This document shows, piece by piece, positions 30,702 to 64,000 of a DNA stretch of 64,000 nucleotides (its first letter is position 1; the number at the start of each line of letters is the position of its first letter). This DNA comes from Blepharisma japonicum (lineage: Eukaryota > Ciliophora > Heterotrichea > Heterotrichida > Blepharismidae): assembly GCA_949751835.1 (NCBI GenBank), contig CATKHK010000024.1, positions 372,001-436,000 of the forward strand. Reading direction: 5' to 3'. Below the pieces are notes generated by a model. That model saw only the letters and a program-made list of their open reading frames with translations. It ran no database searches and was not told the origin of the DNA. A program made the translations under genes and the position numbers.

Positions 30702-30739
30702 AAAGCCTGTTCTTAGATGAGGATGAAGAGGAAGAAAAT

Positions 30740-33199: not shown

Positions 33200-33910
33200 A
33201 CCTAAAATTGCATTTTATAACTTAAAGAATGGCGCCTTTGAGATCCAGTAAAAATTCTTGATGCTCTTGAAGGAGGAGTTATATAAATATATTCCTTTTT
33301 CATAACTTGTTTTTGCATCATTATACCTTGTTGTCTCATATATAAATTTCCAAGCAGCAAGTGAACTTCTGCTTTTGAAATTCAATAATTAAAGAATCTT
33401 GCATTATAAACCTCTTCACAATATTTTAAAAGTTTTTCTGCTTTAAAATAGTTTTCATTTTTATTTGATTTAATATGGATTTCGGAAATTTTTATTACTC
33501 CTTAGGATGTGCAAACAAAACGGAAATATACTATACATTTCTTTGAGGATCTTCTTTTATATTTAATATATTTTCTGCTTTTTGCATGCATAGATCTGCC
33601 TCTGCTATTTTATTTTGAGCTTGGCTTAATTTTACTTTAAGGATAAGAAAATGAGCCAAGGTAGATTTTTCATAGAGATAATGTTTTAGCAATTTGATTA
33701 CATTAGATAAAACTATTTCACATTTCTTATATTCAGATTTGATATAGAAATATTGAAAAATATATGCAAAGGGGTTTAGATTAGCATCTAGATAGCAGTA
33801 AACATAATAATCAATCAGTTTAAGCGCTTGATTGAAATGATTAAAGGAAGTTCTCCTATAAATGCATTTATAATAAACAAAAAGTTTTTATCTGCTTTAG
33901 TCAAAGATAA
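33200..33910 (-). pseudogene. B-box-like/TPR family, copy A, 3' remnant
   Basis: On the minus strand, pieces such as FYIKSEYKKCEIVLSN, ADLCMQKAENILNIKEDPQR and NYFKAEKLLKYCEEVYNARF match the C-terminal third of the intact copy at 45179 and of copy B. They lie in more than one frame with TAA/TAG between them. No start or N-terminal module is left. Confidence 0.65.
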
Positions 33911-34400
33911 TAAATTATATCTATTTGGAAATGAAGGTTCAGGTAAGTATTATATAACTTGGATTATCAACTAAATTCTCTGATAAGAAATTGGAGTTTC
34001 TGCCTTGAGTTTATGCTAAGTTGAAAGCTGCCTACATGTCTATACTAAATTGCAGAAAGCACTTTTAAAAGAAGAGCATAAATGTCTATCTTTTAACTTA
34101 ATCTTCAAATTTCTTATAATCAGAATTATTGAAAATACATATAAAAGGGACTCATTCGGTGAATCACAATAATAAAAAAATAATCGTCAAAATGAAATAA
34201 TTTCATAAGCAAAACATTGAGATTATTTTTCCAAATGATCTTATTATTTTGAGCTTTATAAATAAATCTTTCTCTTTTGCATCCTCTTCACTGATTTCAT
34301 TTGAGTTGAGTAGTAAATTTTTCTCATTTATGAAATATTCCAATTCTTTATAAAATTTGGCAAATGAGAATGGCAGTCTTAACTTAGCTTAATTAAGATG
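33911..34400. other. decayed coding-like DNA, no intact gene
   Basis: Minus-strand pieces (for example FAKFYKELEYFINEKNLLLN at about 34290-34360) look like former protein sequence but belong to no frame longer than 60 codons. Family not recognised. Confidence 0.3.
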
Positions 34401-34810
34401 ATGAGGGAAGTCTGGTATACTCGATGTACTATCTCTATTCTTACTTCATTTGACTTCCTGCCATCTGCAAATGGAAACCGCTAGGCAGCTGGTTAACCGT
34501 GCCTCTGATCCTTTCCAGAAAATGAGGGAAAAACATGTGGTTGGGTTCTCTTCAAGCCCCAACGTAACTCCTGTAACTCCTGGTATCGCACTATGAAAGA
34601 TCCTGCAGACCTTGCTGGAAGTCTGTTTTCGAACTACAACAGACGAATTTCCTTAGAGTTAAAACCGAAAGCATACGGCTAATTCCGACTTTACGATCTA
34701 CCAAATTAACCAAAAACTAGCCAGATATATATACCGAACGCTTTTTTCCCTTCCACAAAGTTCTCGAGTAGTTCCAGGTACAGCTGCTAAGAGAACGGGC
34801 TAGCCATGCC
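34400..34810. other. GC-richer island of unknown origin
   Basis: About 410 bp with clearly higher GC than the AT-rich flanks. The plus strand has one open stretch of roughly 90 codons (about 34406-34680, containing METARQLVNRASDPFQKM and GFSSSPNVTPVTPG) without upstream ATG in context, and an overlapping short frame (MKDPADLAGSLFSNYNRRIS). Could be a fragment of a transposed gene or a structured RNA; not recognised. Confidence 0.35.
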
Positions 34811-35693
34811 ATTTATTTATATGTATCTAGATTGAGCAAGTCAAATTGAATATTTAACTTCTCGCAGGTTACTCCCAAAACAGTAAGGTTTGATTGTTTT
34901 AAAATGCTCTATTGAATCTCGATATCAACCTTTGTTTAAATAGTAGGATCCAATTGATTTATAAATAATTTTGATTTGTATATTACTGAATGACAAATTC
35001 CAAACATTTTTCGAATTTGTGTGAAGTTTTCTAATGGACGCACTTGATAATAGAGCAAAATTCTTTGCTTATTTTCTAATTTAATTTTTAAATTCTTCCT
35101 CTCTAATTAAGTTTGTGATAGTTTAATAATATCTATCACTTTTAAATGTTCTAGAAGACTTATTGATCTTCAAAATATTGCATAGCTTATCAAAATCATT
35201 TAAAAGCATATCTTCTCACAAAATTGGAATTTGTTATCAAAAGAGTTCTGATTATTTTCAATAATTTCAGCTAAATTTTTCACTTTCTCAATTTGCATTA
35301 ATCATAAGAATTACGTATTATTGATCAAGACTTTCTTGAGGTAAGCGTTTTCTGAAGCAATATCGACTCTTTAAGATATTTTTTTGCAGCCTTTAATTTT
35401 CCTCAGTGAAATACACTCTATAAAATTGCTTTATTATTGGACTTAAATGCAGAAGAAGTACTCTCTTTAAGAAAATTAATGATAAAGCAGTATAAAATTT
35501 ATATTTATTTTAAATATAATTTTGCTTTGGGATACTCATTTATGGAAATTATTATTATTCAAGTCTCCAAATATTACTTTTGTTTAATTAGTTTGTATCT
35601 ATAATTCAAAATCTTAATTATTAAATTTTTTATTGTCTAATTTTAATGATTTTGAAACTATAAAAAATAATTGTATCGCTATCTTCTAAATTT
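34811..35693. other. AT-rich, gene-free interval
   Basis: No frame over 60 codons and no clear homology to the TPR family in what can be read; possibly an older decayed copy. Confidence 0.35.
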
Positions 35694-38056
35694 TTAAATA
35701 TTTAAAGGATCTTTTATATAATATTCAATTTCAGCTATGCGTTCGCATAATTTGTTGTTTACTTCTTTATCATTAAGATATGTCTTATACAAATCTAATG
35801 ATTTTTTATAGTATTCTCTAGAATCATAGTATCTGCACTGTTTAAAATATAAATTTCCAAGTTGCAAATCCACATCTGCTTGCAATCGCCAAATATTCAA
35901 GAGTCTTATATTGGAAATCTTTTCGCAATATTTTAAAATTTTTTCTGCTTTTGAATAATTTGTGTTTTTATTTAAATCAATATAAATTTTCGCAATTTCA
36001 ATACAGCTTTGAATTTCATTTCAGCCAGGGAATTTTATATTTCTTTGAGGATTTAATAAAATTTCTTGGATGCTCAATATTTCTTCTGCTTCATTTAAAC
36101 AGAGCTCTACTTCTGATATATCATTTTGAATCATAAATAGCTTTGCACGCAAGATTAGAAATAATACCAAATAAGACCTTTTGTAAATATTAGTTTTTAG
36201 TAGCCTAAATGCCTTAGATACAATGAGCTCACACTTTTTAAATTCATATCTGTCAAAGAAATAACTGAAAACTAACTCAAAAGAAGTTAGATTACCATCG
36301 AGACGACTATAATTATAAAACTTGACAAGTTTAAATGTTTCCCCAAAATAATTATAAGCGTTTTCTATGTTATCATTGCGATTGTATAATTCACCAATGT
36401 GAGAATATACAATTAAGAGGAAATTTTTATCAACTTCAGTCAATGACAATAAAAAATTTTTTATCTCACTAAATATTTCTAATGCTTTATCGTTATTTCA
36501 TTCCTCAAAATAAATCTTTCCAATAAAATACATAATTTCTTGCAATTTAATGCCATAGCTGTAGTTTCTAGCAATATTATAGCACTCTAAAGCATTTTGA
36601 TAATTCTGTGACATATAATAAAAGTTTGCAAATGCACAATATATTTCTCGATAGCCATTATCTCACAATGATACAATACTAGAGCAAGATTTTGCATTCG
36701 ATATCATTTTTCATGCTTTTTCCATATCATTTTTTTTCATATAAGCTTGGCTTAAATAGTAATATAAAAATGGCAATTTTAATCTGTTTTTGGTATTTTT
36801 TATAGATTTTCATAAGCATACAATTGATTTATCAAAATGACTGATCATGAAATACAATACACCAATAATTCCATAAAATTCAGTTTTGTCACTATATAAA
36901 GGTTCCATACTTTCAATAGTTTGAACTATTTTCATCTGTCGCTTTTCATTACCCAACTTATAATATATTTTTGCTAGCTCACAATAACATATAATTAGTA
37001 ATCCTATATTATTTTCTTCTAATTTTCTTAATATTTTAATCGATTTCTTATGGCAGGTTATGGCTTGTTTATATTCTCCATTGGTGTAATACAAATTTCC
37101 TAAATCATGCCTGATTATTGCTACATCTAGTTTATAACCCATTTGCCAATTTATTGCTTCTAATTTCCTAAGGCAATAATATGCCAAAACAGGATTTTTG
37201 ATATTTTGAAATATAATAGAAAATATATCATAAATTAAAAATAGAATCCAGCATTCGCTTTGAGAAAATAAATTTCTAGTTCAGTTAATTTTTCTTGTAA
37301 TCAAAGATAATTTTTTTCACTTGCTAATTTATAGATGATATTAGCTAATATCCTAAAACAATTTACACTTTCAATATCCATTTGACAAAATTCTTGGATG
37401 CTCAACATATTTTCAAGCAATTCCAGTGCCATTTCATATTCAAATGTCCTAATAAATGCTAATAGTGTTTGCCTATATAAGAAAGAAAGATCATTTATAT
37501 CAAAACTCAGCTGATAATTTCAGCCATGAATATATCTTTTGTCTTCAAATTTGAAATAATTAAAATAAATCAAAAAATTGTAAATTTTTGAGTGTCAAAA
37601 CTCAGAAAAATCTTCTGGTGCTTTCTCTGGTAGTTCAAAGTAGCTAACAAAATTTTCGACTTTATCTGGAGGCTGAATCAAAAATCACTTTAAAGGGGTA
37701 TAGAAAAGTTCCATAGAAATGAATTGTTTCGTTATTAAAAATAAAAGAATCCTATCAAAAAAATCAAAAATATCGCCAAAAAAACTCAATCGTAAAGTGT
37801 ATTCTTCATTCAATTCTTTTCGGCAAAATACTTGAAGGTATTGATTAGCATAAACTACACATTTCTTCTTAATGGTGATTATTAATTTCATTAAGACTTG
37901 TCTTGATTCATTGTTTACTGAAATTTTAACTCGCTCAATATTGTGTTGAGGAAATTCTTCGCTATGTGAAAAAGCGTGCTTCGGGCATAGATAAAACCCA
38001 CAAATGCATTTGAATATTGCATCAAAAGAATCAAAGCAGCAGCAAGGCTTTTCCAT
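35694..38056 (-). CDS. B-box-like/TPR family, copy B, one homopolymer frameshift
   Basis: About 785 aa if read as one protein with TGA as Trp. N-terminal Cys/His module MEKPCCCFDSFDAIFKCICG ... CPKHAFSHSEEFPQH (1-40), the shared IxVNNESRQ block, QPPDKVENF, the FNYFKFEDKRYIHG block, then about ten TPR-like helices to the TAA at 35694. The only break is a one-base deficit at the A7 run (plus strand T7, 37311-37317): with eight A the frame passes from ...YKLASEKK to LSLITRKINW and on without stop; as given it ends at a TAA at 37237-37235. Either a real young mutation or a sequence error. Function unknown; a TPR scaffold with a zinc-binding end is inferred. Confidence 0.65.
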
Positions 38057-38565
38057 GATTGTTTTAATTTTATGATAAAATTAAATAATCACCTTCAGAG
38101 ATTTTTTATACTAATTAAGTCTTTTCATTCCCTAGAAATCAATTTTGCGCTTTTAACTTCATAGTTTAACTCAAAATTATTATAAAAATAAACTGAGAAA
38201 TCCCAAACATAAACGAAGAAGAATTTACAAGAAGGCAGCTTATAAGGGAACTCCTATTATACCTGCTAATCCTCATTATTTGTCAAACCTGTCACAACAA
38301 GTAGGATTCACGATTATTTTGAAGAGATCCTTAATTTGCTTTAGTCCTGATATCAGGAGTCGGGATTTGTATCAATGGGCTACTTAATGCCATTATATAC
38401 GGATGCACAGAAAACTAAAAAGCTCGCTGTAACTAGTTTGTGGAGAGGCAATGGCAAAATAAGATCGATCTGAGTTAGTTGGGTTTTTTACGAAAGCAAT
38501 AAGATGAATGAACTTAATACATTTTTTAATTGCGATTTTAAAAGATTTATAAAGCAAGCCTTTTA
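38057..38565. other. intergenic region with GC-richer coding-like fragment
   Basis: On the plus strand about 38165-38372 an open stretch without ATG reads NKLRNPKHKRRRIYKKAAYK, then GTPIIPANPHYLSNLSQQVG, and ends in TAA. Basic and coding-like, but not recognised. The rest is AT-rich. Confidence 0.35.
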
Positions 38566-40239
38566 TTATTTATGCTTAAGCTCCATTTCTTTCTGTTGCT
38601 CAAGTCTCATTACGTATTTCATGATCTTCCCTGAAACCGTTAATGGGAATGCATCGACCACCTTAACGATTTTCGGGACTTTAAATTGAGCGATTTTTCC
38701 TCTGCAAAACTGCGCAATGGTCTCGTGATTAAGAGGTGTCCTTTCTGGCTTCATTCTGATCCAGGCGCACACTTGTTCTCCGAATTTCTCATCAGGGATT
38801 CCAATGACTGCTACATCTTCAATATCTGGGTGGGTTTGCAAAAAGTTTTCGACTTCAGCTGGATAAATATTTTCCCCTCCTCTAATAATCATATCTTTGC
38901 TTCTTCCGACGATTTTCACATACCCATGCTCGTCCATGGATCCTAGATCTCCTGTATGCATTCACCTGTCAGCGTCAATAGCTTCATTTGTAGCTTTCTG
39001 GTCTTCCCAGTAATATTTCATGACAAAATAGCCTCTTGTGCAGATTTCACCGACTTCTCCTCTTTCGACGATTTGTCCATTATGGTCAATAATTTTTGCT
39101 TCACCATGTGGGTGAACTTCTCCCACTGTAGAAATTCTTTTTTCGAAATCTGAATTTGGACGCAGCTGGAAAGAAACTGGGCTGGTTTCAGTCATTCCAT
39201 AGCAGTTGGTGATATTTGGAAGATGCAGTTGGTCAACCATTCTCTTCATCAGCTCTGCAGTGCAAACAGCTCCTGCAACAATGCCAGTTCTTAATGATTC
39301 AATATGCCGCTTCTTCCTTTCTTGCTCTTTCAAATAGGCAATAAACATAGTTGGGACACCATAAATTGAAGTGATTTTTTCGTTTTCTACAGCATCCATG
39401 CTTGCGACTGCGTTAAATCCTGCATCAGGATATACCATAGTCGATCCGTGGCTAATACAAGCTATGTTTCCAAGAATCATACCCACACAGTGATAAAGTG
39501 GTACTGAAATGCAGACTTTGTCGTGGTGGGTGTACTTTAAGGTGTCTCCAACATAATAGCCATTATTCAGCACATTATGATGAGATAATGTAGCTGCTTT
39601 AGGCTTTCCAGTTGTTCCAGACGTAAATTGAATACTACAAGGATCTTCAAAATTAATACTTTGGGTTCTAGTTAAATATTCGTCACTTTTAAGATTGTAA
39701 AGTTCATCAAAATTCATCATTCCTTTATGATGCTTATTGTCAGTCAAAATGACTCGTCTTAAGTGAGGTAATTTGGCTGAATTGAGTTCTCCTATTTTTG
39801 AATCGTGGATTTCAGGGGCAAGTGCTTCAACCATCCCGATGTAATTGTTGTGCTTGAAATGGGATGGCATGATTAGTGTATCTACTTGAACTTTATTTAA
39901 TGAGTATTCTAGTTCCGTTACCTGGGAAGAAGGGCTAACATTGACTAGAATTAAATCGGCCATCGCTGCTGCAAATTGAGTCAGTGTCCAATCTTTACAG
40001 TTTGGAGCAAATATTCCTATTCTTGATTGTCTTGGGAGACCAAGAGCAACAAGACCTTCTGCTATAGCTTCTGATCGATCAAGCAATTCTTTATAAGTCC
40101 ATCTAGTGTGTTCGTGAACACTTACAAGGGCATCAACTTTTGGGTGCTTGTGAGCTGTTTCCCTTAGCATTGCTCCTACGGTTTTTCCTAGTAATCCTTT
40201 GCCGCCGCAAGAGACATAACTTAAATGCTTGACTCTCAT
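38566..40239 (-). CDS. acyl-CoA synthetase, ACSF2-like (AMP-binding)
   Basis: 557 aa with one TGA Trp (38964-38962, ADRWMHTGDLG). ATP-dependent activation of a medium-chain fatty acid or other carboxylate to acyl-CoA. Motifs in order: FTSGTTGKPKAATLSH (P-loop, A3), VPLYHCVGMILGN, GVPTMFIAYL, CYGMTETSPV (A5), HTGDLG (A7), GRSKDMIIRGGENIYPAEVE (A8), and TVSGKIMKYVM with the A10 lysine. GENIYPAE and the layout match ACSF2/FadD-type enzymes, often mitochondrial. Start placed at 40239 (MRVKHLSY); an in-frame ATG at 40302 adds 21 AT-rich codons that look like UTR. A single intact gene flanked by decayed repeats. Confidence 0.93.
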
Positions 40240-40302
40240 ATTTATAACCACAATATTATTTTTGTATATAAAGATAAAACCTAAAAAACGGATTTCATCC
40301 AT

Positions 40303-44569: not shown

Positions 44570-44965
44570 ATACCTTTTGATGCAGTTCACGCATCTATTT
44601 TCCCAAACAAACCTATGCATAAAAAATAGTTTTCTCACTCAAATGAATTTCCTAATTCAAAATAGAATATATAAAATTACAGCAGACGATGAGCCAAGAG
44701 AAATTTTAATAAAATTTATAATCTTTGTAGAGTCATTTATTTTATACTCTTTTCAATTCATCGAATTCTCTTAGATAATTAGATGTACTTAATGTTTTTA
44801 AGACCAAAAAAAATTCATTTCCTTAATTCAGCCACCAAACAAAGCTTTAAAATATGAAAACGATCTTAAAGTTCCTAAAAACCAGAAAATGTCTAAGCTG
44901 GAGACTCAATAATCTTAATCTCTCAATAAATTAATATAACAAACTATCAGGCGTTTAAATAGGAC
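44570..44965 (+). pseudogene. B-box-like/TPR family, copy C, N-terminal remnant
   Basis: Pieces in different frames: PFDAVHASIFPNKPMHKK (compare DAIFxSS...CxKH), then DDEPREILIKFIIFVE (compare NNESREILI), then FISLIQPPNKALKYENDLKVP (compare FLTQPPNKALKFATELRLP of copy E). Order and spacing equal the family's first 170 residues. It lies just upstream of the intact copy D in the same orientation, so it is an old tandem copy. Confidence 0.7.
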
Positions 44966-45178: not shown

Positions 45179-47569
45179 ATGGCAAAAGAATTCTGCTCTT
45201 GTTGCCTTTTAGACGCAATCTTTACGTCCAGTGATAGTCAGTTTAAAGCATGCCCAAAGCATTATTTTTCAGGTCAAACCCAAGGGTATAAGCTAGAGCG
45301 TAGAAAAATCCCAATCAACAATGAATCCAAAGTAATTTTACTTCTTTTTATAGTCACATTAAAGTGAAAATTTAAGGCCTGAACCGATAAATTAATTGAA
45401 GAAAGCTCCGAAAATGATAAATTAGAGTGATTAAATGAGGCTTTTAATTACTGCGATAGAATCACCTTATCTTTGGAGAGAAGGGAATTTGTTTGAGCTA
45501 AGCTCATTTTAAGCCCTTTTGAATACTTCTTAACTCAGCCAAAAGAAAAAACTCAGCAATATATAGAACAAAATTGAAATCGTGTGGATTTATTAGAATT
45601 TCGTCAGTCAGTTAAAGCACATGTGTTTGATTTCAACTATTTTAGATTTGAGGATAAAAAATATATTCATGGGTGGGCTTATAAGTCCAGCTACAACCAG
45701 GACCGTCTATCAGATTTTTGCCATATATTGTTTTTTGAGTTTATTAAAATATCTGAATACGAAATGGCATATGAATTATGTCAAAATCTCTTAAGCTATT
45801 TAGAATTTTATGATCATCCTTCAATTAAAAAATTCAAAAATATGTCTGACTTATTTGGCGATATCCTCCAAAAAATTATAAAGAAAGAAGGCTATTCTCA
45901 GCAATATGAGCAATGAAAAACAATGGCTTATAATGATTTTCAAAAACTAACTAATGATTGCTTACATATTGTCCCTGGATCTGTTTCAATCGAGGAGCCA
46001 ACTGCTGACTCATCTCAAAATTTATATATTTTGTCATATGTTATTCTGGATCGAGTGATTTATATGATGTCGATGAATAGCAATATATCTGAATATTACT
46101 TCAATAGTCTCCGTTATGTTGAATGCCTCAATAAGTATTATTCTAAAAATGTTGCAAATAGAATTAGCCATGAACTAGGATTACTCTATTATGTCAAGAA
46201 AAGCTATGATGAAGCGAAGGAATGTATTATAAAATCGAGTATTTATCATAAAGAGCGTGTCCAAGACCACTCTTCATGACAGAGTAAGGTAGGTCTCTGA
46301 GATGGCTCCTTAGAATATTTAATTGAGGATTATCGTTGCTTGGCAAAAGTATATGGTGCTCAAAAAAATTATGATATGATTAAAGTAGTTCTTAATGCAA
46401 TTGAATTAAACTGCTCCTCAACTAAAGATAAATTTTTATATTATGCAGCTATTGGAGAGATGCATTATCTTTTTAATGATTTTGATGAAGCTTTTAAGAA
46501 TATATGAAAGTGCACTAAAATGTCTAAGCAACAAAATTTTGTTATTTCTTACGAACTATCAAATTTATGGCTTTATTTAGCAGATATTCATGTCTGAAAA
46601 TGCGATTTTAAAAAAGCACACCAATTTCTTTATTATGCCAATTCTTTGCTTAGCATTTTGCCTAAAGAAGATCCAAATCAGCAAGAAATTTATAAGGCAT
46701 TTGGAGTATTTTATCTAAACAGCCAACGATATGAAGAGGCAGTGAAATACTTTGAACTCATAACAAATAGATGGTCTGATCATGAGCTGCTATTTGCTCA
46801 GCTTTCTATGGGAATTGCTTATTTTTGAATGCTAAATATTGAAAAAGCGTGGAAATTTCTAACTGAAGCCAAAAAACTAATGTCTGGCTTTCCTGAAAGT
46901 TATAAAAATCAATTATTTATTGTTAATGCATACATTGGAGAATTATATTATCTTGACGGTAATTTAAAAGAAGCAGATGAATATTTTAATCAGGCTTTTG
47001 ACCTTATAGACCATTACGATATTTTTAAAATTGATATTTTTTTGAAATCTTCAAGTTTTGTTTTTAGTTATTTTTATGGGAAATCTAGCTATAAAAAATG
47101 TGAAATTATTTTACTGAGAATAAATAAAATATTAAAAAATAGAAACCATCTGAAGTTTAGAATGCCTTATTACTTTATTCTGAAAGCAGAGCTGCATATA
47201 GCTTTAAATAAAGCGAATGAAGCAGAAAGATACTTGAGTAAAGCTGAAAAACTATTGAATGGATGTGAAATTTTATGGTCTTCTCAAAAAAAATTAAAAA
47301 TCAATGACTTAGATTGTATAAGTGACCATATTGAGCTTGCCAAAATTTATATTAATTTATTTAATATTTCTGATGGAAGATACCAAAAGGCAGAGAAATA
47401 TTTAAAATATGCTAAAGAGATTGTTAAAGAAAAGAGGCGCAATGATCATTTTTCGAAACTAGCTACATATTACTGGCTTGGGGTTTTATACCTTAAAGAG
47501 CTAAGAGAGAAAAAGTCAAGACATTACCTCCAGCGAACTCTTTGATTTGCTTCAGAATTTAAAAAATAA
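45179..47569 (+). CDS. B-box-like/TPR family, copy D, intact
   Basis: 796 aa, one continuous frame with about a dozen TGA codons read as Trp and stop TAA at 47567-47569. N-terminal module (1-45): CSCCLLDAIFTSSDSQFKAC, then PKH, a weaker zinc ligand set than in copies B and E. Then IPINNESKVILL (about 45-56), QPKEKTQQYIEQNW, FNYFRFEDKKYIHGW (about 150-165), EYEMAYELCQNLL and, from about 270 to the end, serial TPR-like helix pairs (LGLLYYVKKSYDEAKECIIK, AFGVFYLNSQRYEEAVKYFE, YIGELYYLDGNLKEADEYFN, YYWLGVLYLKELREKKSRHY). Probably a cytosolic scaffold; no enzyme motif. It serves as the reference for all broken copies in the window. Confidence 0.85.
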
Positions 47570-48715: not shown

Positions 48716-51245
48716 TTATATTTCTTTCACAGGGCATTCTCCTATAATGTTATCAATCTCTTCAATTTTGTCTAATGCGTTATTTAGTTCACAATCTTCT
48801 ATTAAACAAAGTCTAAACTGCTTATCCATTGATAGCAATTTTTCAAAATATATTTTGGACTCAGCTAATCGTTTTTGGCTATAATATAATTCTCCAAGCA
48901 AAATATATAAATTTATTACTCAGCTATCATCAGAACGATTATCATCTTTAAACTTCTCACAGCGCTTCAAAATTTTTTCTGCCTTCAATAAATTTGTTTC
49001 TGATGCAGAAAATTTTAATTGAACATAAATATCAGCAATATCTAAATATCGGTAATTTTCATCTTTACTTATCCTTTTTTGAGGGCATCTTAATAATCCT
49101 TCTATATTTAAATTCTTTTCTATTTTATATAGTCACTGTCCAGCTTCATCGTTTTTATTTTGATATATGCATAGTTTTGTCCAACAAATATAGAAATTAT
49201 TTAATCTTCATTCCAAAAATGAATTTTCTTTAATTATTTTCATTGATCTTTGCAAAATAATTTCACATTTTTCATAATCACGTTGTTCCAAAAAATAATA
49301 AAAAAGTTGTTCTGGCAAACTTACATAAAAATCTAAATTATCATGTCTATAAAAATTTATAAGTTTAAATGCCTCAATGAAAAAATAAGCTTGCTCAGCA
49401 TTACCTATATCATTTAATGTCAGTCCTATAAAAAAATTAATAATAAACAAGCGGGTTTTTTGAACTTCAGGCAAAGCGTATCAAGCTTCCTTTACCTCAG
49501 TTAACAGCTCCAATGCTTTATCATCATTTGGGATGAATATATAGCAAATTCCCATGCATAATTTTATATACTGCAATTCATATCCACAGCAGTGGCTTTT
49601 TATTTTTTCATAATACATTAAAGCGTCCTGTCAGTAACTTCGAATCATATAAAAACATCCAATTTGTTTGAAAACTTCTATAATAGCAGGATTACCATAA
49701 GATAAAATACCAATGCAAGATTTCGCATTAGTAAACATTTTATGTGCTTTTTCAAAATCTCTCTTGCGTGTATAAGCCTGACCTAAAAAAAGATATAAAT
49801 ATATCATTTCATAAGAATGATTCATTTTTTCTCTTTTTTTGCAGTTTTTTATATTCTTTCATAAAATTGAGATTGATTCAGCAAATTTATTTGCTTCGCA
49901 ATAAAATCAACAAACAACACGTCAAAAATCAATTTCATTTTCATAAGATGGCTTCATTCTTTCTAAAATTTGAATAATTTTATTTATTTTTTTCTTTTTA
50001 CCCAAATCTGTATATACTCTTCCTAAGCCATGATATGAACTCATCAGCGAATTAAAACTGTCATTATCAGAAAATTTTCTAAGAAATCTAATAGATTTCT
50101 TAAAAGAAGATTTTGCTCCTTCATAATTCTCATTATTTAAATATATGTATCCGAGACTCATATTAACCTTAGCTGCTTCATTTTCATTAACTTTACTCAG
50201 AATCATTTCTAATTTCTTGTAGCAATAGTAAACTAATTCATTTTTATTAATCTTTAAAAATACAGTTGAAAATATCCTATAAAATAACTCTTGAAGATTT
50301 TCAATGTTAAGATTTAAATAACTTTTTTCTAATTCTTTTCATGTTTTTAGCAACAGACCAGTGTTTCCCTCCATAAGCAAAAGCACAATCTTAATAAAAG
50401 AATTTCAAGTAAAGTCTAGATAACGATTAACTCCTCATTTAATATCAATAAAGCTTTAAAAAATTCATCAACAGCAAATTTTTGATTTAAATGTAATATA
50501 TATATTAAAAGGCTTAATATAAGAATTTTATTGTATTAATATAAATAAATTACTTTTGATTATTGAGGATAAGAGTAAAAAATTCTTTAATGTTTAATAC
50601 ATTTTGAAGATATTCAAATGCCATTTCAAATTCAGACTCATTAATGCAATCTCGTAGCCAAGTCCCAATTACAGGTAAGAGATCAGGCTCATTATGTGTA
50701 CGATTATAATCTAAGCCATGACAGTATTTTTTGTCTTCAAATTTAAAATAATTAAAATAAATCAAATAAGTATTGATTTTATCAAAGAATTCTACAATAT
50801 TTTCTGGGATAACTTCTGGTAGCCGAAGTTCCGTTGCGAATTTTAATGCTTTGTTTGGTGGCTGAGTTAAAAAATATTGAAAAGGATGAAGATAGAGTCC
50901 CATAGAAATCGATTTTTTTTTCTGTAAATACATTAAGATTTTAATGAAGTTAGAATGATAATGCTTTAATTTCTTTAAAAAATCGATATAAAATTCAGAG
51001 TTTTTTTCAGAATATTTCTCTAATAATTGATCGACATATAAGCTGAATTTTTGCTTTATAGTGATCATGAGAAGAATTAAAATTTGCCTTGATTCGTTGT
51101 TTATAGGGATTTGAATACGCCATAGTTGATGACCAGGGTATTTTTTTAGATGAGAAAGATTATGCTTTGAGCAGATTTTTATTTTACAGGAGCAGCAGAC
51201 AAATATTGCGTCGAATGCATCAATATAACAACTTGGCTTTTCCAT
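48716..51245 (-). pseudogene. B-box-like/TPR family, copy E, interrupted
   Basis: Starts MEKPSCYIDAFDAIFVCCSC ... CSKHNLSHLKKYPGH, the best-preserved Cys/His module of the family, then IPINNESRQ, TQPPNKAL, FNYFKFEDKKYCHG. The frame runs to a TAA at 50552-50550. A second long frame (about 50450 to TAA at 48716, TGA as Trp) holds the entire TPR part (GQAYTRKRDFEKAHKMFTNA, LGELYYSQKRLAESKIYFEK). Between them lies a 119-bp segment bounded by the 10-bp direct repeat TAAAAAATTC (50457-50466 and 50576-50585). Removing it joins KEFF to KALLILNEE; one further single-base shift near 50435 is then needed. Confidence 0.75.
50457..50575. mobile_element. IES-like insertion, 119 bp, TA-containing 10-bp direct repeats
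   Basis: One of two TAAAAAATTC repeats plus 109 bp of very AT-rich DNA, inside pseudogene copy E. The repeat begins with TA, as required for TA-bounded ciliate internal eliminated sequences. Removal down to one repeat copy restores sequence matching the family on both sides. Call is inference. Confidence 0.45.
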
Positions 51246-54760: not shown

Positions 54761-55985
54761 TTTATCTGTTTCTTATTCTGATAAATCACCAGCTTCTGAT
54801 TTTCAAGTCAGAAATTTCTCCAAATCAATATAAAAATTGATAATTTCTAAATAATCATTATTTGAACGTTACTATGTTTTAAAATTTTGAAAGAAATTTA
54901 AACTTTCTTCTATGTTTAAGAATTTTTCAGCTTTAGATAGGGATTCTTCTGCTTCTTCTATTTTATTCTGAGCCATATAAAGATTTGTGCATTGAATTCA
55001 GTAATCAGGCAATCTAATCCTAAGATATTCATCCATTTCAATGAATTTGTTTTAGCTTCTAAAAAATCATTTTGCTTTTTTTGTAGTTAGATATTTTAAG
55101 AAAATGATGAAAAAGATAGGTACGAGAATTGAGAAAATAATCATATTCAAAAAATGTCATAGTAATCTATAATTTCAAACGCTTAAGTAAAATTTAGACT
55201 TGCATTTCTAGAGAGCCATTAAAACTTCCAAAATAAGTATTTAATATGAATAACTTTTTTTTTATATTTTCAGGTGTACGTAACATCAGCTCTTTTACTT
55301 CAGTCAATAATTTTAAAGATTTATCATTATCCAGCATTGAAAAATAAAAAACATCCAATAGAAAATTTAACAAATAATAGCTAATCTCCATAATAATATT
55401 CCTTTGTTGTTTCAAAATGATTCAAGGCATCTTGATTATAATGTCTATTTAGATAAAATGCGCCTAATTCTTTATAAATTTCTTTAACAAGTGGATTACT
55501 CAAAGGCAAAATGACAGATAGAGATTTAGCATTATAAAGCATTTGATGGGCTTTCTTAAACTGACTTTTTTTGCGTAAATTTTTACCAAAAGAAGGTAAA
55601 TATTTAGCAATCAGAGATTAAACTTTTTAAAGGTATTATTTTTAGACATTTTTATGAACTTAATTAAGTAATGAATTGCGATATCTAGGTCATAAATAAA
55701 ATAATAAATTTTTCCAAGAGCCACATAGTATTTAAATTTATTTTCAGAATGTCAAGTTTGGCCTTTAATAGCTTTAATTATTTTTCATAATTTTTTTTCC
55801 ATGGCCTCATTACGATTGCCAAGCAAAGATAAGAATCCATTAAGGGCCCTGAATAATCATTATTCTTAAAAATATTTATTGCTCTCCTAAAGTATTTTTT
55901 GCTATCTTGTAGCGTCCATTAAAGTAAGACAGCCATCCTAATTTTTGATAAATTTTTTAAGCAAACGCCAAGCTATCGATTTCCT
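54761..55985 (-). pseudogene. B-box-like/TPR family, copy F, heavily decayed
   Basis: Minus-strand segments match the C-terminal two thirds of the family: LLTEVKELMLRTPENIKKKL and FILNTYFGSFNGSL (in the 73-codon frame 55415-55194), plus shorter pieces further down (AEESLSKAEKFL-like near 54910-54960). Many stops and shifts; no N-terminal module found. Confidence 0.65.
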
Positions 55986-55994
55986 TGATAATAA

Positions 55995-57065
55995 ATGAGA
56001 ACATTAAGAACTTTTAAAGGACTTGAAAATGTAAAAGTACCAATAAAACAAAAAACAGATAGCCAGGGAAGCTTGCTTAATTTTCAAATAAGCACCGTTG
56101 CTAATGACTACAATAATAAACTCCACGATAGTGCTTTAAACACTATAGATAGCTTAAGAAATAAAACAGCTGAAATTTTGAGTAGCCCAAAAAATCCAGA
56201 GTTAGAGCTAGATTTCAGAGCAACTTTTTCAGCATATCAAAGCAATTCTCATCCTTTTGATCCATCACTATTGCAAGCTTACCAAGTTTATCTTACTGCT
56301 TACCAACAAAAGACATCTCTTTATAGTGTTTGGGAAAATGATGACGACATGACTATATTAATTGTTTATAACACTGAAACTGAAACCAAAGAAATCAAAA
56401 TCATGCAAGCTCCAGAACTATTAAACCATGGCACTTGTATAGCTCAGCTTCCAAATGGCAAGCTATTCTGTTTTGGTAAATATCCACCTTCTGGAATTAC
56501 AATACTAATTAATCTGAATGATATATTAGAAGTGCTGCCATCTGGAACTTCTTGCTATGACTCATCATGCATCTATTTTAACAATAGCATCTATTGTTTT
56601 GGAGGAAAAAATGAAGATGATGAAAGTTTAACTCTGTCTAGTAGATTTGATTTGTATCAAAATCGATCAATTCAATTAACTCCATTGCCACAAATTGACA
56701 GCTTGTGCAATAGTATAATATTTAATGGGAATATTCTAATTTCTGGATTTAGCAATAGAAATATTTTGTTATACTCAATTGATATTAACTCTTTCTCGAC
56801 AATTCCTTATGAGTTCGCAGCAGAGAAAAGAAAGATCTTGATAAATGCAGAGAGACTGTACTTGATTGAATGTGATAAGGGGTCAATATATGAAAGCGAA
56901 ATTGGAAGTGACACAAATTGGAGACGAATAGGAGATTCAAATATAAATTATAATCCTTGTCAAGCGTATTGTTCATATAATAAAGGAGGATTATATATTG
57001 TGATAGATGGAGATGATTACTTTAAGTTTGATTTGAATCAAAAGAGATTGACTAAATTAAAATAG
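55995..57065 (+). CDS. Kelch-like beta-propeller protein
   Basis: 356 aa, stop TAG. N-terminal 110 residues helical with KSLRN/DSLRNKTAEI and an F-x-A-Y-x-S segment. Residues about 120-350 form repeated beta-strand blades with Kelch-type cores: IAQLPNGKLFCFGKYP, SSCIYFNNSIYCFGGKNEDD, NSIIFNGNILISGFSN, ending DDYFKFDLNQKRL. Only four to six blades are visible. Such proteins usually bind partners (cytoskeleton or ubiquitin ligases); the specific role is unknown. It begins 10 bp after the remains of copy F and is convergent with the 18-TPR gene (72 bp). Confidence 0.78.
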   Translation: MRTLRTFKGLENVKVPIKQKTDSQGSLLNFQISTVANDYNNKLHDSALNTIDSLRNKTAEILSSPKNPELELDFRATFSAYQSNSHPFDPSLLQAYQVYLTAYQQKTSLYSVWENDDDMTILIVYNTETETKEIKIMQAPELLNHGTCIAQLPNGKLFCFGKYPPSGITILINLNDILEVLPSGTSCYDSSCIYFNNSIYCFGGKNEDDESLTLSSRFDLYQNRSIQLTPLPQIDSLCNSIIFNGNILISGFSNRNILLYSIDINSFSTIPYEFAAEKRKILINAERLYLIECDKGSIYESEIGSDTNWRRIGDSNINYNPCQAYCSYNKGGLYIVIDGDDYFKFDLNQKRLTKLK

Positions 57066-57137
57066 TCATAAAATAATTATTCAAATTTTAATAATGCTAC
57101 TTCATTATTCAAATTATTTTAAATAAATTGTGTTAAA

Positions 57138-59036
57138 CTACTGCTTTCTGTGATTTAGCACAAGTTCCCTTAGTTCAGAATTATTAGGATTGAATTTGAG
57201 TCCTTCGATATAGCACTCAAATTCTTCTTGATCTCTGCCTAATTTTCTAAGAACAGAACCTTTATTATAGTAAGCTTCAATATAATCAGGCTTGATTCTA
57301 ATTAATTTGCTATAAATTTCTATTGCATCAGCATATTTTTCTAAAACTATAAGAGTAGCAGCTTTATGATAATAAGCTTTTGCAAAATAAGGGTTTATTT
57401 TGATTGCATAGCTATAGCATTCAATAGCTTCAGAATATTCGCTTAAATTATAAAGCGAATTTCCTTTATTAAAGTAAGCATCAGCATCATCAGACTCTAG
57501 CTTAATTACTTCGTTATAACATTCTATCGCATCAAAATTTCTACCTAAATTTTCAAGTGCAAAACCTTTATTATGAAATGCATCTGTATAGTCAGGATTA
57601 ATCTCAATTGCTTTATTATAGCATTCTATTGCCTCAAGATACCTACCTAAGTCGTCAAGAGCATATCCTTTATTAAAATATGCAGAAGCATCATCAGGTA
57701 TGAGCTTTATTGCTTCGTCATAACATTCTATAGCTTCAAGATTTCTTCCTAATTCATTAAGAGCTGCACCTTTATTCATGAAAGCTATTGCATAATTAGG
57801 TTTGAGTGCAATTGCTTTGCTATAGCAGTCGATTGCTTCAATATTTATATCTAAATTTCTAAGAGCAACACCTTTATTATAATAAGCTTCCGCAAAATTA
57901 GGTTTAAGTTTGATTGCTTCATCAAAGCAGTCTATTGCCTCAAGATATCTGCCTATATCATTAAGTGTAAATCCTTTATTATAATAAGCATCAGGATAAT
58001 CAGGCTTGAGCTCGATAGCTTCGTCATAGCATTCGATTGCTTCATAATATCTACCTAAATTCCCAAGAGTGTGTCCTTTATTAAAGTAAGCGTCAGCATA
58101 ATCAGGTTTTAGCTCTATAGCCTTGTCAAAACATTCTTGTGCTTCTAAATTTTCACCTAAATTCTTAAAAGCTCGGCCTTTGTTATAGTATGCTTCAGCA
58201 AAATCTGGCTCGAGTTTGATTACTTCGTTGTAGCATTCGAGGGCTTCATAATTTCTACCTAGGTCGCCAAGGGCAGCACCTTTATTATAGTAAGCATCCG
58301 TACAGTCAGGCTTGAGTTCGATTGCTTTGTTGTAGTATTTTATTGCTTCAAGATATCTGCCTAAACTATCAAGTGCATATCCTTTATTTAAGTAAGCGCC
58401 AGCATAATCAGGTTCGAGTCTGCTTACTTCGTCATAGCATTCAATAGCTTCAAGTATTTTTCCTAAATTTTCAAGAGCATTTCCTTTATTATCATAAGGA
58501 TCAGCATAATCAGGGTCGATTTTAATAGCTTTGTTATAGCAATCAATTGCTTCTAAATTTCTACCTAAATTTTTAAGAGCATTTCCTTTAAAATTGTAAG
58601 CATTAGTATAATTAGGGTCGATTTTGATGGCTTCATCATAGCATTCTATTGCTTCTAAATTTCTGCCTAAACTTTTAAAAGAATTTCCTTTATTAAAATG
58701 AGCAGAAGCATCGTCTAATTTGTACTTAATTGCTTCGTTGTAGCATTCTACTGATTCAAGAGTTCTTCCTAAAGCTTTGAGAGCGTTTCCTTTGTTATTG
58801 TAAGCGTGAGCATAATCTGGCTTGTACTTGATTGCTTCGTCATAGAATTCTATTGCATCAAGATATCTACCTAAATTTTTGAGAGCGTTGGCTTTATTAA
58901 AATAAATATCAGCGTCAGGTTTGAGCTTGAGTGCTTCATTGTAATAGTCTATTGCTCTAAAGTTTCTGCCTAAATTATAAAAATGATTGCCTTCATTAAA
59001 TAAACTTATATGGTCTCTGGAATGAATTAGACCCAT
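57138..59036 (-). CDS. protein of 18 tandem TPR repeats
   Basis: 632 aa made of 18 consecutive 34-residue TPR units of the type AYYNKGxALxNLGRxLEAIECYDEAIKLKPD, with almost no other sequence. N-terminus MGLIHSRDH could be myristoylated (Gly2). DNA repeats every 102 bp. The units are close to one another, so repeat number can change by unequal exchange, yet the frame is perfect, indicating selection. Related to the TPR units at 30740 but not to the B-box-like family. Similar repeats occur in O-GlcNAc-transferase-type TPR domains, but no catalytic domain is present here. Probable scaffold. Stop TAG. Confidence 0.88.
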   Translation of the reverse strand: MGLIHSRDHISLFNEGNHFYNLGRNFRAIDYYNEALKLKPDADIYFNKANALKNLGRYLDAIEFYDEAIKYKPDYAHAYNNKGNALKALGRTLESVECYNEAIKYKLDDASAHFNKGNSFKSLGRNLEAIECYDEAIKIDPNYTNAYNFKGNALKNLGRNLEAIDCYNKAIKIDPDYADPYDNKGNALENLGKILEAIECYDEVSRLEPDYAGAYLNKGYALDSLGRYLEAIKYYNKAIELKPDCTDAYYNKGAALGDLGRNYEALECYNEVIKLEPDFAEAYYNKGRAFKNLGENLEAQECFDKAIELKPDYADAYFNKGHTLGNLGRYYEAIECYDEAIELKPDYPDAYYNKGFTLNDIGRYLEAIDCFDEAIKLKPNFAEAYYNKGVALRNLDINIEAIDCYSKAIALKPNYAIAFMNKGAALNELGRNLEAIECYDEAIKLIPDDASAYFNKGYALDDLGRYLEAIECYNKAIEINPDYTDAFHNKGFALENLGRNFDAIECYNEVIKLESDDADAYFNKGNSLYNLSEYSEAIECYSYAIKINPYFAKAYYHKAATLIVLEKYADAIEIYSKLIRIKPDYIEAYYNKGSVLRKLGRDQEEFECYIEGLKFNPNNSELRELVLNHRKQ

Positions 59037-59857
59037 GCTGTATTAGCTATAATTATTATATTTTCATAAAACTGAGGGTTGATTATGGATAGACCTACAT
59101 TTCCCCTCATTTTCTATTAACTGATTTTTAGTAATAAATTGATATTGAAAACCATTTTTTCATTTTGTCTATATTTGAGTATCTACTAAAGTCAGGCGTG
59201 CAGACAGCTATACCTAATATTTGCAAATTTTTATCAAATAAAGGTTAGATTAGAATAAAATTAACGAAATAGAAACAAAATAAATAATCAAATAAATAAA
59301 TAAAATATGAAGTTGCCTAATATAAAAATTAACTGTATCAGTTATAGTTTTTATGGAATAAAAACTATAATAAGGAGTTGCTAATTATGGTTTTGGCTCA
59401 AGAATTCTATAATAGCAATTTATTTTCCTTATTTGTAAGAAGATAAATTTCTTCATAAACTTTTGGTATATTAATAATCTTTGCATTAAGCACTGATAAT
59501 ATTTTAAAGTGAGCATAAATCGGATATAAATTTGAGAAAAGAGAATTTAATTAAAGGTATTATTTTATAATTAAAAATTTGTAATTTTTTAATTTTTTTC
59601 TGATAAATCGTTATGTTTCATGTAAAGAAATTAATACTCTTTTTTAATTCAGGATTAGTTATATTAAGTTCTAGCTGAATATAATATATAGAAACTGATT
59701 CCTTGCTAGGCATTTAGCCAAAAAGTAACTTTTTTGAAGCAAATATCTGGCAGGGAAAAGTTTAGTGAATAACATCAAGAAAATCCTATTCGGGGGGTTA
59801 TTCCACAAAACGACTGTTATTTATAATATTCATTTATGCTAAGCTACTTAGAGATTT
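59037..59857. other. 820-bp AT-rich intergenic region
   Basis: No gene or RNA recognised. A small hairpin-prone AAATCCTATTCGGGGGGTTATT patch lies at about 59785. Confidence 0.4.
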
Positions 59858-60123
59858 AAACATAAAATTCCAACATTTCATCAATATCGCTTTAGAACCG
59901 ACTAAGGGTTTCCTCACAAATGAGTTATGATTAATCTTCTTAAGAATGTCTAATGACAGCTGATAATAATTTTTTGACTCTTTTCATCTTTGCTGTTCAG
60001 AGTATAGCTTCTCAAGTCAGCAATATATAGCTAATTTTGAAATTAAATCATTGCGTAGCTTTGTGCTAACGATTTCTTCAGAATATTTTAGTATTTTTTC
60101 TGCTTTTATATAGTTTTCCTCAA

Positions 60124-60186
60124 TAAAAATTTAATTTGGCCTTTAGGCCGTCAAAAACAATTTAATTCTGATGATTCCTTGGGTCT
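60124..60186. mobile_element. IES-like insertion, 63 bp, TA-flanked
   Basis: Lies between TA (60124-60125) and TA (60187-60188) in copy G. Removal leaving one TA gives, on the minus strand, KYS-IEENYIKAEKILKY in frame and in agreement with NYSKAEKILKY of copy B. The insert contains a 12-bp palindrome GGCCTTTAGGCC-like hairpin (60138-60149) and an in-frame TAA. TA boundaries and length fit ciliate internal eliminated sequences (inference). Confidence 0.5.
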
Positions 60187-61220
60187 TAGAATATTTGATT
60201 AAATTAATATAAATTTTGGCAAGTTCTATATAATCACCAATGCAATCTAATTCGTTAAATTTTATATGTCTTTGTGAAGGGTGCACAATTACGCTCATAT
60301 TTAATAATTTTTCAGCTTTGCCCAAATATCTTTCTACTTGTTTGGTATCACCTAAGGCAATACAAAGCTCTGAATAAAGAATTATGAAATAAGGTTTTCT
60401 AAATTTTAGATGCTCATAATTTTGCAGTATTTTATTTATTCTTCGCAAAATACTTCGACATTTTTCATAATCAGAAATCTCATAAAAATAACTAAAAGTG
60501 TAACTAGATGAATTCATAAAAAAATCAACTCTGCAGATATCATAAGAATCGATAAATCCAATTGCTTCAGAAAAACAATTATGAGCATATTTTATTCGAC
60601 CTTTAAGCTTATGTATTTCTCCAATGTAAGTATTCACAATAAATAATTGATTTTTATAAACTCCAGAAAATTCACGCATTTTTTTTTTACGTCAGTTAGA
60701 GCTTCTCGTGCCTTAGAAGTTTTGAGCCTATAAAAATAAGCAATTCCAATACAAAATTTCACAAATAACAGTTCATGCCCTGAGCAGAAATTTTTTATGC
60801 TTTTAAAATATTTTGAAGCATCTTTGTAGCATTTTCGATTTAAATAAAATAATCCAATCGCTTTATAGATTTCTTTGATTTTTGGATCAGACAGGAATCA
60901 ATTGCCACACAAAGCTTTTGCATTATGAAGATACTGGTGTGCTTTTATAAAATCACCTTTTCATATATAAATTTCTACTAAATGTAAATACGATCTTGAT
61001 TGGTCATAATAATTTTTCACCTTTTTTGTTGTCAAAATCCTTATATAATTTCAGAGTTTTCTTAAAGAATTATCAAAATCATTTAAAAGGAAATAAATCT
61101 CTCCAATAATCCCAGAAAATTTTCATTTCTCTTGATTTGAAATATTTTCAATCGATTTAATTATTTTCTTTAATCCATTTTTATTTCCCAGCTCATGATA
61201 TGTTTTCGCCAAGCACCTAT

Positions 61221-61388
61221 AAGCTTCAGTTAATTCAATTAAAGTCTGCTACCAGGTTGCTTCCTGCAGTTGCCCCCAAAATAACACTAGGGTATTTATG
61301 CTATTTCCTCCAGTCTTCCAAAGTGTGGCTACCTTGGCTTTGCTCACAATGAGGGCACTAGTCTTGAATTTTGGACTCAGAAGACCTA
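61221..61388. mobile_element. 168-bp GC-richer insertion with 8-bp direct repeats
   Basis: AAGCTTCA occurs at 61221-61228 and 61389-61396. Deleting one repeat plus the interior gives, on the minus strand, LELLIE-AYRCLAK in frame, matching LEYLIEDYRCLAK of copy D. The interior is clearly richer in G+C than the gene and carries TAG in the frame. Not similar to anything else I can see in the window. Confidence 0.55.
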
Positions 61389-62409
61389 AAGCTTCAATCA
61401 ACAATTCTAGCGAATTTGGATATTGAAATTTCTTGTGAAAATAAATTGATTTCATAAACCATCTCTTTGCTTCTTTATATATTTTATTTTGACAGCACAA
61501 TAATCCCAGTTCTTGGTTAATTCTAATTGCATTATCTCAATTACCAAGTTTTCGGCTAGATTGTTCTGCATTACGAAGTTTGGCTAATTTATCTTTAAGA
61601 TGAATCTTCTCTCCAGAAATTTTTAGATTCATTTCTTGAAAATATATATTAAGGTATTCATGCTTAAAATCAGTCTCGAGTAAATACTTACTAAGATTAA
61701 TTCAGTCAATTAGAGAAAGGTTTGATTTCTTATTGATTAGATTTTCAATTTTAAGATTTAGGATTCTGTTATCAGTAAGGTGGTAAAATTCTTGATAACT
61801 CAGGAAATTTTGCGCGATTTCGCGTGCTATTTCTAATTCTTTTGATTCAAGTAAATTTAAAAGAAATGGGCCTATAAGTTTTGATAGAGGACATTGGTCG
61901 AAATAAGATTCATAAGGCAAGCATGAAATATATTTTTGGTCTTCAAAAACGAAATAATTGAAATTAAATAGATATGTTTTGAAATAATAGTAAAAACTTC
62001 GAAAATTTTCTTCTGAGAATTTGAAATTCTTTATATATTCCTCTACTTTATCTGGAGGTTGGATTAAAAAATACTCAGGAACTCCAAAAATAAATTTCAT
62101 GGAAACATATTTCTTTTTCATCAAATATATCAAATATCCATTGCACAAATCATGGCTTTCATGTAATCTGTCTAAATCAGAATTTTGATTAACCAATTCA
62201 TCAAAATATTTGCACAATCACCGTTTTATTGAAACTATAAAATTGCGCAACATTTCTTTTGATTTTTCGTTGATTGGAATAATTATTCGCTCTAATTCAA
62301 TTCTATCCTTTTTATAATGATAAAAATGTTTAATGCAAGCCTTAATCGTACCACAGCTGGAAGTGAAAATTGCATCATAAGAATCTAAAGAACAGCTAAT
62401 CCTTTCCAT

Positions 62410-63019
62410 TGCTCTATATTTAATTTTATTCCCTATTTTTACTAAATATAATTTTGCACATCTGAGATCTCTATTTTGATTATCACTAGAATATTGAATT
62501 AAGCAATAAATAATTTCTGATTTTGGCAAAATTATTTTCTTACATTTTATTTGCTGCCAGTAATTAGCTCTTAAAATTTTATAGCTTTATTAAGTTTAGA
62601 TAAATATTTTTTTCCTTTTTGGATCTAATTTTAAAAAATTTCCATTTTTAATTGGATTCTACATTTTAGCTACTCTCCCTCCAAAAACTACTAAGAATAA
62701 ATAGTTTATAACTAAGCTAATTATTAGAATGGACTTATTTTATATGATTAATTTATAATCCATTGTATGTGAATTTAATTTCTATCATAATTATGAGCTC
62801 AAGTATCTGGTATTTTATTATTGATACGCATGACAGATAGCCTTGCATGAATATGAAATACTGTATAGTTTACTATTGATGTGCTGTATTGGAAAATGCA
62901 TTCAATATTTGGGGCTCTGATAAAATTTGAGGAAATCATACGCTGCATAATGCATTCTTAATATAGATAAAGTAAGGAGGAAATTAAAAAGGCATCTAGT
63001 CATATTTTCATTTCCAAAT
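62410..63019. other. AT-rich spacer upstream of copy G
   Basis: In-frame extension of copy G to an ATG at 62529 exists but lacks similarity to the other copies. Nothing else seen. Confidence 0.4.
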
Positions 63020-63847
63020 ATTGCTTAAAGTATTCTACCCAAGGAATTTTTTAATATTAATTCATTTGTTTGTGATGATTTAATATGTAATCGTTTTCAT
63101 TCTTTTAAGAGTTTGCCAGAATCCTCTTTCTCAATAAACTTTTTCAGAATATTACTAAACTCTTCACAAATATATAAGATTTCTTGAATTAAAGGATGAT
63201 AATAAAATTCTTTATAGCTCAGCAAACTTTGAATTAATTCATAGCCATCTCATATTCAGAAATTTGTATAAAATTGCAAAATAATATATAGCAAAAACTT
63301 GATAGATGAGACTCATTGTAGCTTGTTTTGTATTCCCCCTCATGAATGTATCTTTGATCCTCGAATATAAAATAATTGAAATCAAAGACATATGTTCTAA
63401 AAGTTTTATAAAAAGAGATCAAATCTTCTGGAGATCTAAAATTTTTTACATATTCTTCTGCTTTAAACTCGGACTCAATTAAAAAATTATCAAAAGGACT
63501 GAAAATTAATTTTGTAGAAATGAATTGTTTTCTTTCAAAAACATTAAGATTCAGTCACAGTAGTGATAGGCATCACTTATTGTATCTAATCTAGAACTGT
63601 ATTCTGCTGAATTACCATGAGAGCTTGGATTGATTAAATTACTAGCATAATAGTTAAATTTCTGCTTTATTGCGAGTATAAAATTGATCAAAATTGCTTT
63701 TGATTCATTATTGACTGGGATTTTTATTCGCTCTAGGCTGTAACCTTGATTTTTGTAATAAAAATAATGCTTTGAGCAAGCAAAGTGACCGCAGCTCGAT
63801 ACGAAGATTGCATCAAAACAATAAAGAAAGCGCCTCTCCTTTTTCAT
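63020..63847 (-). pseudogene. B-box-like/TPR family, copy H, truncated
   Basis: MKKERRFLYCFDAIFVSSCG, then HFACSKHYFYY, the IPVNNESKAILI block, FNYFIFEDQRYIH and YELIQSLLSYKEFYYHP are all present, but in three frames. One-base losses lie near 63535 (T5 run; MFLKE for expected ERKQF) and near 63240 (EMAMN* for expected EMAYEL). It ends in TAA near 63055 without any TPR part, so only the first 270 residues remain. Confidence 0.7.
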
Positions 63848-63939
63848 TATTTATATTTTTATTTATATATTACGCCTTATAGATATTTGTTTTAAATAAT
63901 AATATTTTAAAGTTAAACAATTTTATCTTTTCCTTAGAG

Positions 63940-64000
63940 ATTTAGCCATACATTTCCAATATTTCATCAATATCTCTTAAGTACCGACTAAGGTTTTCCT
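63940..64000 (-). pseudogene. B-box-like/TPR family, copy I, 3' end at window edge
   Basis: Minus strand reads NLSRYLRDIDEILEMYG then TAA (about 63955-63943), nearly the same as the eroded C-terminus of copy G at 59858-59905. The gene body lies beyond the window; whether it is intact cannot be told. Confidence 0.55.

Follow-up and report, generated by a model that had tools for sequence, protein, structure and literature searches.

The window analysed here is a stretch of 64,000 nucleotides from the ciliate Blepharisma japonicum (contig CATKHK010000024.1, hereafter C24, positions 372001-436000), and its positions 33200-64000 cover the left-hand portion of a row of tandemly arranged genes encoding an N-terminal module of conserved Cys and His residues followed by a long region of tetratricopeptide repeats (TPR). 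The window contained seven copies (A, B, D, E, F, H and J) together with two remnants, and copy K, an eighth, entered it with its tip (Table 1). A family hidden Markov model (HMM) recovered the seven copies and both remnants, and with the remnants included the eight or nine copies counted in a preliminary description of this DNA are about right. The HMM also matched an ordinary TPR open reading frame (ORF) at 30920-31270 (E 5e-5), which was left out of the copy count. A separate protein, of the canonical 34-residue TPR type, is encoded by the ORF at 57138-59036. Copies do lie on both strands, as first described, although in the window the plus strand carries solely copy D and a single remnant, and 21 of the 22 loci modelled for the whole array are on the minus strand (strands taken from tblastn). 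Copy D was indeed the sole intact copy in the window (1/7 lesion-free), an open ORF of 796 codons when TGA is read as Trp. The remnant nearest to copy A may be its upstream part.

Ciliate code table 6 was rejected because copy D is open with TGA as Trp and because a Rab ORF in the window uses TGA for the Trp of its WDTAGQE motif; table 6 would give copy D 12 in-frame TGA stops. The Trp codons of copy D were 12 TGA and 6 TGG, and its stop codon was TAA. Telomere repeats of CCCTAACA were found at two of the 20 contig starts sampled (C99 and C108), and both this repeat and TGA as Trp agree with the description of the macronuclear genome of Blepharisma in PMC9942806.

The motifs that had been described as shared by the copies all exceeded the shuffled expectation when positions 33200-64000 were translated in six frames with TGA as Trp and compared with 30 dinucleotide shuffles. 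FNYFxFED occurred five times and [EF]YEMA three times (shuffle maximum 0 for both), NNES[RK] and QPPxK four times each (maximum 1 for both), DAIF five times (maximum 3) and CxKH twelve times (maximum 7).

Table 1 Copies, remnants and parts of the gene family in the window, in window positions
Feature	Positions	Strand	Description	Evidence
Copy A	33295..33875	-	Decayed C-terminal (TPR) fragment; one frameshift in model	Family HMM E 1.1e-19 and 4e-10
Remnant	34835..34999	-	HMM positions 464-518	Family HMM E 1.6e-14
Copy B	35697..38056	-	Full length, one frameshift near 37272; eight of eight predicted zinc ligands present	
Copy B, Cys/His module	37919..38056	-	About 46 codons	Alignments and predicted secondary structure
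Remnant	44601..44765	+	Remnant of N-terminal module, upstream of copy D	Family HMM E 5.7e-4
Copy D	45179..47569	+	Open 796-aa ORF; predicted zinc site I present, site II gone; TPR solenoid modelled from about residue 323	
Copy E	48719..51245	-	Full length with eight ligands present; a frameshift and two stops lie within about 50570-50456	
Copy F	54893..55802	-	Decayed TPR fragment; five frameshifts and three stops in model	
Copy H	59876..62409	-	Broken, one frameshift and three stops; pairs with copy K	92% DNA identity
Copy H, stretch spanning insertion with stop	61240..61385	-	Found in H and K alone (90%)	Genome DNA search
Copy J	62929..63847	-	Truncated duplicate of copy L; two frameshifts, one stop	94.9% over 877 bp
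Copy K, 3' end	63951..64000	-	Gene runs past the window (C24:435951-438429)	

Mapping of the copies through the genome, which the preliminary description had proposed, was carried out on this one ciliate genome (45.2 Mb in 224 contigs, the other contigs being named C90, C155, C167, C211, C180, C5 and so on) with frameshift- and splice-aware locus models built from 15 open copies. On C24 the array comprised at least 22 loci from about 405.3 to 487.4 kb (82 kb), about 51 kb of it beyond the window. Eight of the 22 loci were full-length and lesion-free (D, L, N, O, T, V, W and X), while 14 were broken or truncated, with copy R being lesion-free yet truncated. Elsewhere there were six open full-length copies, on C90 (one), C211 (two) and C167 (three), and a copy on C155 was cut by the contig end. 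All copy counts are lower bounds because further N-terminal pieces turn up in the genome. An expanded family combining a Cys/His module with a long TPR region is borne out, and the statement that it is mostly pseudogenised describes the window (1/7 intact) but not the family (8/22 intact on C24 and six open elsewhere). Tiny introns (14-18 nt, GT..AG) were considered as the source of the breaks and rejected, since under the splice-aware model, which placed a 16-nt candidate intron in copy A, none of A, B, E, F, H and J could be read without a frameshift or a stop. Lone frameshifts such as those of copies B and M may be artefacts of the assembly. A search with copy D as the query, which detects close relatives only, gave 13 pattern matches among prokaryote genomes and three among viral contigs, and none of them was confirmed as a relative. 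Small clusters of more distant TPR-type copies or pieces were seen on C156, C5 (527-544 kb) and C56 (298-314 kb).

Alignments of the N-terminal module showed eight Cys/His positions in the order C-x2-[C/D] ... C-x(1-2)-C ... C-x2-H-x3-H ... H, followed by a linker with NxES[R/K]. Open copies start directly at the module, and no signal peptide or membrane segment was seen by eye in the copies (no predictor was run). From the pattern of cross-brace fingers we take ligands 1, 2, 5 and 6 to form site I and ligands 3, 4, 7 and 8 to form site II. In a clade of 12 copies that includes D (support 100/100), site I was complete in 11, the exception being pseudogene J, and site II was complete in none. 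Every member of this clade was without at least one Cys and at least one His of site II, and all four site II ligands were gone in O, P, the C90 copy and D, intact though the last is. Among 16 N-termini outside the clade, site I was complete in 15, with C180 excepted through a script landmark error (it has CSYC), and site II was likewise complete in 15, with C168 excepted; C167e and C168 entered the ligand count but not the tree. That one site decays while the other stays fits two separate sites, as a two-zinc cross-brace would allow. The module probably binds zinc, and we infer that it would fold as a two-zinc cross-brace. The ligand order and the site-wise decay fit an eight-ligand cross-brace in general, and ZZ, AN1 and other cross-brace fingers, to which there were weak matches, fit equally. 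For copy B the predicted module consisted of strands at residues 14-17 and 22-23, a helix at 25-34 and a strand at 40-43. Two helices were predicted after the module, at residues 48-75 and 79-101 in D and at 49-79 and 84-109 in B.

The C-terminal region is predicted to form a TPR solenoid, and TPR profiles agree with this assignment. TPR_12 was above its cut-off in six of eight full-length proteins scanned (D, N, T, C180, C5 and C168) and below it in W (30.0 vs 30.1) and C129 (22.0). An AlphaFold model of copy D made with 11 window sequences placed about 11 hairpins, the first two of low confidence, in a solenoid that starts at residue 323. Block values of the predicted local distance difference test (pLDDT) were 45-70 up to about residue 400, below 50 for residues 225-307 and, starting at about residue 411, mostly higher than 80. 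The model of D had 240 fold matches in the PDB at E <= 0.001, the best 50 of which were TPR or other helical-repeat proteins by title, with APPBP2, a cullin-2 ligase receptor, at the top. Profile searches gave 144 matches, including designed TPR proteins, kinesin light chains, ZMYND12, GPSM2, TTC29 and IFT88 among the 60 listed. APPBP2 and proteins like kinesin light chain have a TPR solenoid in common with the array proteins, but the likeness is confined to the TPR part and is of the kind that any TPR protein shows.

A similar module occurs in two genes close to the copy on C90. With one of these as a genome query there were 150 matches at E <= 0.01, all 150 of those scored out of 327 candidates, so that the size of this Kelch-type family is at least 150 matches. 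In an alignment with 19 of the matches the eight positions were seen by eye in every one, and among 15 modules (the C90 query and 14 of these matches) seven positions were invariant and the eighth nearly so. When TPR-type and Kelch-type profiles of module plus linker were compared, the hhalign probability was 97.5% and the score 59.8, against maxima of 18.4 in 150 column shuffles and 28.1 in 150 shuffles with the Cys/His columns fixed. By this profile comparison, module and linker are homologous in the two families, of which the larger, Kelch-type one is without an entry in Pfam. Kelch-type proteins of the same genome (e.g. C90:47329 and C167:34525) thus have module and linker in common with the array proteins and differ in a C-terminus that is often Kelch. 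In 12 Kelch-type proteins scanned, Kelch was found at E < 0.05 in seven and TPR in one, while four had no named C-terminal domain, partly on account of several scanned stretches being incomplete. Kelch-type modules, some of them in tandem arrays, lay at C77:162-208 kb, at C50:5-25 kb and at the ends of many contigs. C167 had at least 12 Kelch-like stretches similar to the Kelch-like gene that lies inside the array at window positions 55995-57065, interleaved with TPR copies, and the one ORF scanned at C167:5409-6740 had a WW domain N-terminal to its Kelch part.

Tandem duplication, truncation and decay were observed, in agreement with the birth-and-death family that had been suggested for the window. 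Duplicated DNA blocks in the array paired H with K (92%), J with L (94.5-94.9%, J being truncated), V with W (88%, including intergenic DNA), Q1 with R (91%) and Q2 with T (86%). An insertion with a stop was common to H and K, and a genome DNA search, which skips very common words, found two matches to it, H itself and K. Since the shared insertion was found there alone, the duplication was probably that of an already broken copy. The same search gave no support for the insertion as a mobile element. The tree had 26 rows, with 14 of 23 inner branches well supported, near neighbours grouping together, and long branches for C5, C180, T, U, E and B. Five close intact pairs had non-synonymous to synonymous ratios (omega) of 0.56-0.76, with a pooled ratio of proportions (pN/pS) of 0.68 (z 4.9), the pairs C167a-b and C167b-c sharing one copy; omega was 0.36-0.80 in more distant pairs. 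In the broken pair H-K omega was 0.98 for the first ORF part and 0.72 for the other, neither different from 1, and it did not differ from 1 in J-L (0.83) or in the linker region of V-W (1.07, z -0.2). These ratios show weak purifying selection on the intact pairs.

The module had been called B-box-like, and it has the same order of eight ligands as the B-box (PF00643), although in the array module the second ligand is often Asp, C-x-C often replaces C-x2-C and the sixth ligand is His. The strand-strand-helix-strand order of the B-box fits the predicted secondary structure at low model confidence. The genome has 83 matches to zf-B_box, 71 of them above the cut-off. A TPR-type profile compared with 20 of the 24 best genomic B-boxes scored 20.7, a value reached by none of 200 column shuffles and by one of 200 with Cys/His fixed. 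In a scan of 13 modules (11 TPR-type and two Kelch-type) with Pfam zinc models, CEBP_ZZ matched one (E 9e-4), AN1 three (best E 0.017) and zf-RING_5 weakly covered one (E 0.011). A profile search of the PDB with the module gave a GntR regulator at E 0.025 and PML at E 0.3, which is chance level, and a second such search gave no B-box. The name fits the ligand order and, at low model confidence, the predicted topology, it fails at the PF00643 cut-off, and a kinship of the module with the B-box is suggestive only.

The explanation that we favour, with about even confidence, is that the array encodes intracellular TRIM-like adaptors whose copies are born and lost while purifying selection on them is weak. 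It draws on the build of the proteins, in which a small head that probably binds zinc is followed by a helical hairpin and by an end for protein binding, the last varying between families. The Cys/His module would be a two-zinc cross-brace and serve in docking or oligomerisation, the predicted hairpin that follows (about residues 48-101 in D) would play the part of the antiparallel coiled coil of TRIM proteins and the TPR solenoid would select the target. Copies would then differ chiefly in the target chosen, and one clade would work with a single zinc site. Animal TRIM or RBCC proteins have a RING, a small cross-brace zinc module, a helical linker and an exchangeable C-terminal binding domain, and are encoded in clusters with turnover. 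A cross-brace module (predicted here), a helical linker, an exchangeable C-terminus and clusters with turnover are common to both, whereas the array proteins, seen in one genome, are without a RING, carry a module that zf-B_box does not place and have a TPR solenoid at the C-terminus.

Several results weigh against TRIM-like adaptors with a B-box-like, two-zinc head. No RING was found ahead of the module in open copies, which places the proteins outside the TRIM family, and ligase activity is not implied. No array copy was among the 83 genomic PF00643 matches, and zf-B_box matched one of the 13 modules in the Pfam scan at E 0.042, weaker than CEBP_ZZ or AN1; it matched none of 15 Kelch-type modules, nor did any other Pfam zinc model. 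The hhalign probability to genomic B-boxes was 11-43%, varying with the leading row, and the score of the Kelch-type profile against B-boxes was reached by 22/150 and 56/150 shuffles. A predicted structure of the N-terminus had been proposed as a check for zinc ligands, and its secondary structure fits, but confidence was low (block pLDDT 40-81 for the copy B module) and no B-box was named among the 50 Foldseek matches listed for copy B, and no match of that model, listed or not, reached E <= 0.001. Site II losses differ from copy to copy. Single intact pairs had z values of 1.5 to 3.1, by which purifying selection is weak.

Housekeeping adaptors in proteostasis, transport or cilia, with copy number set by dosage, are an unlikely alternative. 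The fold match to APPBP2 speaks for them, as do the kinesin light chain, ZMYND12, TTC29 and IFT88 entries in the profile listing, but those matches amount to generic TPR resemblance, and turnover this fast is uncommon in housekeeping genes. Somewhat further down in probability is intracellular defence, in which the TPR ends would detect what parasites, symbionts or mobile elements produce. Vertebrate TRIM and IFIT proteins act in intracellular defence, and the TRIM-like layout and the birth and death of copies are in keeping with such a role, but selection was weakly purifying, not positive. IFIT1, an IFIT3 complex and IFIT5 were among the 50 fold matches listed for D, although these are ordinary TPR matches and unspecific. 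We give a similarly low probability to a mostly neutral repeat family in which unequal exchange creates and breaks copies with little effect. The 14/22 broken or truncated loci, the probable duplication of a broken H/K ancestor and three of the five intact pairs whose omega, taken singly, does not differ from 1 (z 1.5, 1.6 and 1.8) are what neutrality would predict, while the full-length copies without lesions (eight on C24, six on other contigs), the pooled pN/pS and the keeping of one predicted zinc site as the other decays argue against it. A self/non-self or mating-type repertoire, with copies varying between strains and their variety setting compatibility, appears very improbable in spite of the tandem arrangement, the fast turnover with its broken copies, the division into several clades and the V-W linker omega above 1, given the position of the module at the very start, the absence by eye (no predictor run) of a signal peptide or membrane segment, a pooled pN/pS without sign of strong diversifying selection and a V-W linker value that does not differ from 1.

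The favoured reading of TRIM-like adaptors has a wider version that we regard as doubtful. An undescribed zinc domain would have founded a genome-wide heterotrich repertoire of well over 150 genes, in which an oligomerising head is joined to Kelch, TPR or other ends as an independently evolved TRIM-like system whose copies are still being born and lost in tandem, possibly in intracellular defence or recognition. If true, a single-celled eukaryote would have made its own large TRIM-like repertoire, with one type of zinc head on Kelch-ended and TPR-ended proteins. The array also offers a natural experiment, with a clade that is losing one predicted zinc site and keeping the other set against copies that keep both. 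The combination of module and TPR region matched no described family in Pfam, in PDB sequences or in the accessible part of the literature, from which supplements and most subscription journals were outside the search, and to that extent the earlier impression of novelty holds; the accessible portions of PMC9942806 and PMC9942856 do not mention the family.

The array was also considered as a subtelomeric family. Kelch-type matches lay within 15 kb of contig starts in 36/150 cases, against at most 7.4% expected. Assembly breaks at repeats explain this enrichment equally well, because two of 20 starts were telomeric and C14 and C24 begin with the same 48 bases, identical over the stretch compared; a further figure of 46/99 is biased, the contig set having been partly chosen through the matches themselves. 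An ORF at C24:490256-491839 resembles by eye the TPR ORF at window positions 57138-59036, and the contig end falls inside it; this repeat ORF may explain why the assembly stopped there. Other neighbours included an acidic ORF of 210 aa at C24:454077-454727, at the split point of copy P, and four similar ORFs (one plus, three minus) at C155:3664-9513 beside the array copy, the one scanned of the four being a Methyltransf_7-like carboxyl methyltransferase (E 1.6e-40). Window positions 24134-33155 held four aspartyl-protease-like ORFs in a row with a small TPR ORF between them, including ORF 31776-33155 with a Pfam Asp match (E 4.4e-45) and three that were aspartyl-protease-like by eye.

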